A stretch of DNA of 47,799 nucleotides from Candidatus Pelagibacter sp. Lineage in GTDB: Bacteria > Pseudomonadota > Alphaproteobacteria > Pelagibacterales > Pelagibacteraceae. The DNA is taken from contig JADHPA010000002.1 of the NCBI GenBank assembly GCA_016778675.1, positions 1-47,799 on the forward strand, in the 5' to 3' direction. Below the pieces are notes generated by a model. That model worked only from the letters and a program-made list of their open reading frames with translations. It was not told the DNA's origin and did not search any database. Positions 19,669 to 39,463 of this stretch are shown here, piece by piece. Both the position numbers and the translations under genes were made by a program. How positions within the stretch are numbered: the first letter of the stretch is position 1; each line of letters opens with the position of its first letter.

Positions 19669-19959
19669 ATGAAATTTAAACCGTTACACGATAGAGTTTT
19701 AATAGAAGTCTTAGACGGCAGTGAAAAAACTGCTGGAGGAATAATTATCCCTGATACAGCTCAAGAAAAGCCTCAAGAAGGTAAAGTAATTGCTGTTGGT
19801 GGTGGTGCAAAAACTGAAGATGGAAAATTAATTCCAATGGATGTGAAAGTTGGTGACAAAGTTCTTTTTGGCAAATGGTCAGGAACTGAAATCAAAATAG
19901 ATGGCAAAGAATACAGCATAATGAAAGAATCTGACATTATGGGTATTTCGGGAAAATAA
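19669..19959 (+). CDS. groES: Co-chaperonin GroES
   Basis: The heptameric lid of the GroEL chamber. The start is set at ATG 19669 because it is preceded by a strong AAAGGAG (19657-19663) at good spacing and begins [17 protein letters not shown], the usual GroES start; the track start 27 bases upstream lies in the leader and overlaps the promoter -10. The 96-residue length is then normal. The mobile loop [18 protein letters not shown] and the end [19 protein letters not shown] are conserved. It forms an operon with groEL 24 bases downstream. Confidence 0.97.
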
Positions 19960-38927: not shown

Positions 38928-38955
38928 CTTGAAATTTGCAGACTAGTTCCTAAAT
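38928..38955 (+). promoter_or_regulatory. Heat-shock (RpoH-type) promoter of hsp20
   Basis: CTTGAAA at 38928-38934, a 15-base spacer and CTAAAT at 38950-38955. The -35 element and the spacing are the same as in the groES promoter at 19616. Start of transcription is expected near 38961, giving a 55-base leader. Confidence 0.7.
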
Positions 38956-38960
38956 ATCAA

Positions 38961-39019
38961 CTGTACGTCGCCTAATGGGGCTTACTAAATTAACCTTGCT
39001 AACAAAGGAGGAAACTATG
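38961..39019 (+). promoter_or_regulatory. Candidate ROSE-type RNA thermometer in the hsp20 leader
   Basis: CCTTGCT (38994-39000) can pair with AGGAGG (39006-39011), the ribosome-binding site, across a 5-base loop AACAA: C-G, C-G, U-A, U-G, bulged G, C-G, U-A. A YGCU segment with a bulged G opposite the Shine-Dalgarno is the hallmark of ROSE elements before small heat-shock genes. A second small hairpin, GTA...GCC with GGC...TAC (38963-38985), precedes it, as in ROSE leaders. Not folded by computation; the melting behaviour is inferred. Confidence 0.6.
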
Positions 39020-39463
39020 ACAAGTAGGGATTTATCTATATTTAACACTCTAAGACCTTTTTCAATTGGTTTTGACGATATGTTTGACCAATTTGAAAAT
39101 ATGCTAGGAAATGGAGGGTTAACCATGCAGTCCAATTACCCACCTTACAACATTAGAAAAACTGGCAAAGACAATTACGCTATTGAAGTTGCTCTGGCTG
39201 GATTTAATAAAAATGATGTTGAGGTTGAGTTTGAGGATAATTTATTAACTGTTAGAACTAAACAAGTTGATAAATCAGAAAACAAATCTGATGATGGTGA
39301 AATTATTCATAAAGGTATTTCACAAAGACAATTTGCCAGATCATTTACAATTGCGGAGGATGTGAGAGTGAATGGTGCTGAATTAAAAGATGGTCTTTTG
39401 ACAATCGCCTGTGAAAGAATTGTACCTGAGTATAAGAAGAAGAAACTTATTGAAATTAAATAA
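39017..39463 (+). CDS. Small heat-shock protein Hsp20
   Basis: An alpha-crystallin-type holdase. The start at ATG 39017 is chosen because it follows AAAGGAGG at 5 bases and begins MTSRDLSIFNTLRPFSIGFD, the usual IbpA-like start; the track start at 38975 lies inside the structured leader. The product is 148 residues. The crystallin domain spans about 35-130, with YAIEVALAGFNKNDVEVEF, FARSFTIAEDVRVNGAEL and DGLLTIACER. The C-terminus KKLIEIK lacks a clear IxI but is close. It binds unfolding proteins and hands them to DnaK. Confidence 0.95.
   Translation: MTSRDLSIFNTLRPFSIGFDDMFDQFENMLGNGGLTMQSNYPPYNIRKTGKDNYAIEVALAGFNKNDVEVEFEDNLLTVRTKQVDKSENKSDDGEIIHKGISQRQFARSFTIAEDVRVNGAELKDGLLTIACERIVPEYKKKKLIEIK

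Follow-up and report, generated by a model that had tools for sequence, protein, structure and literature searches.

A putative two-hairpin ROSE-type RNA thermometer ahead of hsp20 in SAR11 bacteria, and the frozen codons that follow it

We propose that the leader of the small heat-shock gene hsp20 in a Candidatus Pelagibacter genome is a two-hairpin RNA thermometer of the ROSE type, a reading to which we give a probability of about 0.8. The window, i.e. the whole stretch of DNA that was analysed, is 47,799 nucleotides long, and all features of the hsp20 locus described below lie on its + strand. Such a thermometer had been put forward in an earlier, sequence-only reading of this DNA, and comparative evidence supports it: the alignment of related leaders bears out the promoter as well as both hairpins and shows that they are conserved in evolution, and thermosensing itself is predicted, in that warming would, by analogy with characterised ROSE elements, open the second hairpin and raise translation. 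The ROSE part alone is of a known kind; the new aspect is a frozen coding segment immediately downstream of the start codon, unless that segment proves unrelated to the leader. SAR11 bacteria count among Earth's most abundant cells and have very few regulators. If the proposal is correct, the hsp20 leader would let them sense warming directly and without a protein, in addition to RpoH.

The hsp20 gene, its leader and its promoter

The coding sequence of hsp20 (39017-39463) specifies 148 amino acids and matches Pfam family PF00011 with an E-value of 1.5e-16. Relatives of the protein are found in the Pelagibacteraceae, including single-cell genomes of Candidatus Pelagibacter ubique, and for this reason the label 'SAR11-like genome' previously attached to the DNA is correct. 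The start codon is at 39017 and the leader is about 55 bases long; from 5′ to 3′ one encounters the promoter, hairpin 1, a variable A+T-rich linker, the segment CCTTGCT, the loop AACAA, the Shine-Dalgarno (SD) sequence AGGAGG and the start codon. As expected of a ROSE element, this is the 5′ UTR of a small heat-shock gene, as indicated by the HSP20 Pfam match and the RpoH promoter. An in-frame upstream ATG at 38975, within hairpin 1, gives a reading frame of 162 amino acids (38975-39463), and gene callers that pick it would hide the leader.

The promoter consists of a RpoH-type -35 box, CTTGAAA (38928-38934), conserved in 137 leaders, and of a CCCATAT-like -10 box, CCTAAATA in the window (38949-38956) and CCCATATA in relatives. 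The two boxes are separated by 14 bases in the window (N14) and in 125 of the 137 leaders, for which the mean RpoH-type score is 12.4 out of 14, against 9.1 for shuffled sequences. The heat-shock promoter that had been taken to bound the 55-base leader is thus a conserved one of the RpoH type, and transcription is expected to start near 38962, just before hairpin 1. The genome also has an rpoH match above the curated cut-off; since RpoH is encoded, control of hsp20 at two layers, by RpoH and by RNA melting, is plausible. At two loci of another family, L152 and L153 of f10, the ROSE motif is retained in the leader, but the promoter region has TTGACAT and TGACA repeats together with a TATATTA box in place of a RpoH-type promoter.

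The two hairpins compared among relatives

In hairpin 2, the anti-SD strand CCTTGCT (38994-39000), which contains the ROSE motif U(U/C)GCU, faces the SD sequence AGGAGG (39006-39011) across the loop AACAA (39001-39005). The possible pairs are C38994-G39011, C38995-G39010, T38996-A39009, T38997-G39008, C38999-G39007 and T39000-A39006, with G38998 bulged; the pairing capacity described beforehand, with one bulged G and a five-base loop, is exactly what the sequence contains. Among 139 hsp20 leaders drawn from one SAR11 family, which are related sequences and hence non-independent observations, CTYGCT is present in all 139 and is followed by AGGAG in 138. The linker and the loop vary in this family while CTYGCT and AGGAG stay, and CTYGCT is missing from the equivalent place at each of 27 other SD-bearing starts taken from these sequences.

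Beyond conservation, changes in hairpin 2 are coupled. Where the outer C is present, its partner is a G in 54 leaders out of 54, while in leaders without that C this base is T or A in 26 of 125 (Fisher p 5e-5). Among 191 unique leaders, 125 carry ACUUGCUU and 55 carry CCUUGCUA, loss of the outer pair going together with gain of an inner pair through about 4-6 changes on the tree. The longer form, CCUUGCUU, is seen in none of the 191; the outer pair is therefore traded for the inner one and the helix keeps a constant length, as a tuned melting point would require. In addition, the U.G pair beside the bulge becomes C-G in leaders of the CTCGCT type and, in one leader (L041), an inner U-A pair is turned into A-U. 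Covariation in this hairpin is limited because the SD sequence is held fixed by the ribosome. The motif counts and the coupled changes together indicate the pairing typical of ROSE elements, U(U/C)GCU against the SD sequence with a single bulged G.

The small hairpin said to precede CCTTGCT is present as well, at 38963-38985, with arms 38963-38972 and 38977-38985, a bulged G at 38970 and the loop TAAT; in the window itself one inner pair, C38966/T38982, is mismatched. In a structure-blind MAFFT alignment of 63 non-redundant leaders, hairpin 1 pairs in 95.7% of the cells and shows double-sided changes in seven of its nine pairs, and RNAalifold recovers it unaided. Its GCC and GGG blocks are, besides CT(T/C)GCT and AGGAG, the sole other invariant or nearly invariant blocks of the leader. 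ROSE elements have at least one stable 5′ hairpin ahead of the SD hairpin, and hairpin 1 occupies that place. For the structure as a whole, the covariation score is 0.305 against 0.189 for shuffled alignments and is reached by none of 500 shuffles; the percentage of paired cells, 90.8%, is also above all 500, and both values exceed those of every slid control. Absence of conservation or of compensatory changes in close relatives would have spoken against the sequence-only reading; the changes in hairpin 1, together with the coupled changes in hairpin 2, are of the kind that it called for.

By analogy with characterised elements, the leader most likely operates as follows. RpoH would transcribe hsp20 into an RNA beginning just before hairpin 1, which would act as a stable 5′ scaffold and remain folded. 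In the cold, hairpin 2 would pair the SD sequence with C(C)UUGCU(U), one G being bulged, and ribosomes would be excluded; warmth would melt its weak helix, free the SD sequence and allow translation to begin.

The case rests on comparison rather than on stability, because the leader taken by itself has an unremarkable fold energy (z 0.12). Nearest-neighbour folding of the window's RNA ending at the AUG predicts that the SD sequence is open with a probability of 0.05 at 10°C and 0.26 at 37°C. When 15 coding bases are included, it is open at about 0.6 at all temperatures, because the modelled anti-SD strand then prefers codons 3-5. In the model, a ribosome-binding site closed at low temperature, as the sequence-only reading demands, is thus obtained only if the transcript ends near the start codon; with codons 2-5 included, the anti-SD strand of the window favours the coding region. 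Predicted SD opening at 20°C does not distinguish hsp20 from control genes (0.34 versus 0.38, p 0.76), and the cost of opening, 12.6 kcal/mol against 10.6 for other genes (p 0.03), makes hsp20 slightly harder to open. The energy model may underestimate the ROSE helix, since it counts the full penalty for the bulged G, a base that pairs with a G in the NMR structure from Bradyrhizobium, as cited in PMC11342760. Thermosensing by the SAR11 leader is predicted by analogy rather than from these energies.

Frozen codons and competing explanations

Downstream of the start codon, synonymous sites are frozen in codons 2-4 and the first base of codon 5 (39020-39029), which read ACA AGT AGG G in the window and ACA AGT AAG G in most relatives. 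In SAR11 genes of the MTSKD type that keep those amino acids, codons 2-4 are ACA AGT AAG without exception, although elsewhere in hsp20 these codons account for 45, 10 and 19%, respectively, of the use of their amino acid. Across a tree built from 184 unique sequences, codons 2-4 show no synonymous change, against a median of 16.5 for 104 comparable codons, none of the others having two or fewer. At 80 loci the start had been located by a search pattern in which part of codon 3 is prescribed, and all 80 matched; the same result was obtained with 115 genes collected without that pattern. A freeze of codons 2-8 is absent from groES, groEL, a permease and two other genes of the same genus, and these five controls rule out a general early-codon freeze in SAR11. 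The synonymous constraint on codons 2-4 is solid.

As a separate observation, the proline codon 5 of groES (19672-19947 in the window; L296-L325) takes the form CCG in 23 of 30 genomes, whereas CCG accounts for about 3% of the gene's other proline codons; early groES mRNA is possibly under constraint as well.

The most economical, though not proven, reason for the frozen codons is pairing with the anti-SD strand, as positions 39023-39029 are complementary to 38994-39000. Hairpin 1 was considered as their partner and rejected, its arms being variable while the codons are not. We tentatively suggest, as a possibility clearly weaker than the thermometer itself, that codons 2-5 constitute a second partner of the anti-SD strand, yielding a bistable or doubly clamped thermosensor in which these codons cannot be silently changed. 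In MTSKD-type genes the strand would alternate between the SD sequence, with the bulged G, and codons 2-5, with seven contiguous pairs; the coding segment would set the share of the ROSE state and either aid release of the SD sequence on warming or clamp the entire start region into a closed loop in the cold. Such an arrangement would modify the thermometer, not replace it.

The absence of synonymous change, although each codon is a minority choice, and of any similar constraint in the five control genes fits this suggestion. So does the extent of complementarity: the frozen stretch plus the next base, AAGUAAGG, complements the anti-SD strand over seven bases in almost every one of the 114 MTSKD genes, a helix of 6-8 pairs can be drawn in all 114, and one of seven pairs in all eight MSNAL genes. 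The G bulged in the ROSE pairing would form a G.U pair with the coding segment, and most amino-acid exceptions (AGG, GGT), among them the window's own arginine codon AGG at position 4, retain pairing through G.U. At 37°C the codon helix is predicted to be more stable than the ROSE helix (-6.2 and -4.1 against -2.4 and -0.6 kcal/mol in two leader types).

However, both strands are invariant, so covariation cannot prove that they pair. AGC is never seen, although it would make a better pair than AGT, the threonine codon is still ACA when the base lacks a counterpart, and about 4 of the 48 Thr-Ser-Lys encodings would pair equally well by chance. Complementarity between codons and anti-SD strand does not exceed five bases outside SAR11 and is missing in the majority of the divergent SAR11 genera; it is thus dispensable for a ROSE element. 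The pattern suggests that the element was extended into the coding region as a derived state. The extra helix may, judging from the model, either help to open or help to close hsp20, because the wild-type codons expose the SD sequence yet, compared with random synonymous ones, raise the cost of opening the whole start region by some 0.6-1.2 kcal/mol. The frozen codons are a clear test case for a thermometer recruiting coding sequence, and early codons of heat-shock genes may hold regulatory information.

Another explanation for the frozen codons is an internal SD-like site, UAAGGA, spanning codons 3-5 and holding a standby 30S subunit near a closed start. UAAGGA is complementary to the 3′ end of 16S rRNA and is contained in AGU AAG GA, which would account for AAG and for AGT rather than AGC. 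We consider this improbable, because it leaves unexplained both the invariant ACA and the choice of AGY over TCN for serine, and because the forms with arginine at codon 4 (AGG, AGA) weaken it.

For the leader itself, one alternative is a binding site for a protein, either Hsp20, as with IbpA of E. coli, or another; self-repression by IbpA via the 5′ UTR has been reported in gamma-proteobacteria (PMC10474464). CUUGCU and the GCC/GGG blocks of hairpin 1 are strongly conserved in sequence, which would suit such a site. We nevertheless judge it unlikely as the explanation, since the stem sequence of hairpin 1 varies freely with pairing retained and the coupled changes in hairpin 2 track base pairing to the SD sequence. 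The E. coli ibpA leader is itself also a ROSE element and does both, so protein binding may coexist with the ROSE structure. Finally, that the pairing arose by chance or that the feature acts in DNA and has no role in RNA, with which the ordinary fold energy of the leader would agree, is very improbable in view of the conservation, the covariation and the class-wide position ahead of hsp20.

Distribution of the element and comparison with known thermometers

A covariance model (R1) built solely from the window's SAR11 family (f1) gave 75.9 bits for the hsp20 leader in the window's genome and 19.4 for the next match, and this search found no further copy above noise in that genome. In 8 of 20 genomes of the same class that had been held out and lie outside the order, the best genome-wide match was again the hsp20 leader, with scores from 52 down to 22.6 bits. 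U(U/C)GCU was also found ahead of the hsp20 SD sequence at 33 loci of the order (sister family) and class. Given these matches and motifs at hsp20 across the class, the SAR11 element is, on sequence grounds, one version of a feature found class-wide and probably inherited. In the sister family f2 of the same order (L178-L187), hsp20 leaders are longer, with extra possible hairpins before TAATCGCTTAAGGAGGATTA, and the SD hairpin is more symmetric than in the window's family. No hsp20 match was obtained, at the thresholds used, in three SAR11 genomes with a completeness of at least 95% (G001, G012 and G040), and the gene appears to have been lost in some SAR11 genera; weak R1 matches in G012, which has no close hsp20, do not lie upstream of a heat-shock gene.

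The proposed search with the Rfam ROSE models had a mixed outcome. The best match of the window leader is ROSE_3 (RF02523), as it is for three relatives (L062, L151 and L160; 26-29 bits), and all these matches are full length, on the correct strand and correctly placed. But the window scores 17.2 bits, below the gathering score of 43, so that no Rfam match is obtained in the window at gathering level and the leader is not filed as a member of RF02523. This cut-off says little here, because none of 20 other alphaproteobacterial hsp20 loci, at order and class level, reaches the gathering score of a ROSE family; most of them nonetheless carry U(U/C)GCU ahead of the SD sequence. The Rfam ROSE models look too narrow.

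Our literature search found no paper describing ROSE in SAR11; the main text of a survey of strain HIMB5 (PMC6429828) lists one 'possible RNA thermometer' among its candidates, with the gene unnamed. The closest characterised system is the two-hairpin ROSE-like element of Pseudomonas ibpA, which has been probed and tested with reporters, and in which hairpin 1 keeps its fold while hairpin 2 melts on warming (PMC3669281). It shares with the SAR11 form a leader of about 60 nucleotides, a stable hairpin 1, a hairpin 2 that sets U(U/C)GCU against the SD sequence and a small heat-shock gene downstream. In contrast, the SAR11 form is A+T-rich, has a weaker helix 2 and is known from sequence comparison, and its codons 2-4 are in addition frozen and complementary to the anti-SD strand. 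ROSE_3 likewise has a bulged G in hairpins 1 and 2 and ends at the start codon, but the window leader attains 17.2 bits and one relative 26.2 bits at a gathering score of 43. Classical ROSE elements (Bradyrhizobium hspA, Sinorhizobium ibpA; RF00435) are, like ours, alphaproteobacterial, precede small heat-shock genes and display U(U/C)GCU with a bulged G; they contain three to four hairpins (PMC3669281) instead of two, the f2 leaders being longer. The ROSE-like elements ahead of ABC transporter genes (PMC11342760) have the same SD-blocking motif as the SAR11 leader, but they serve other genes and have no link to hsp20.
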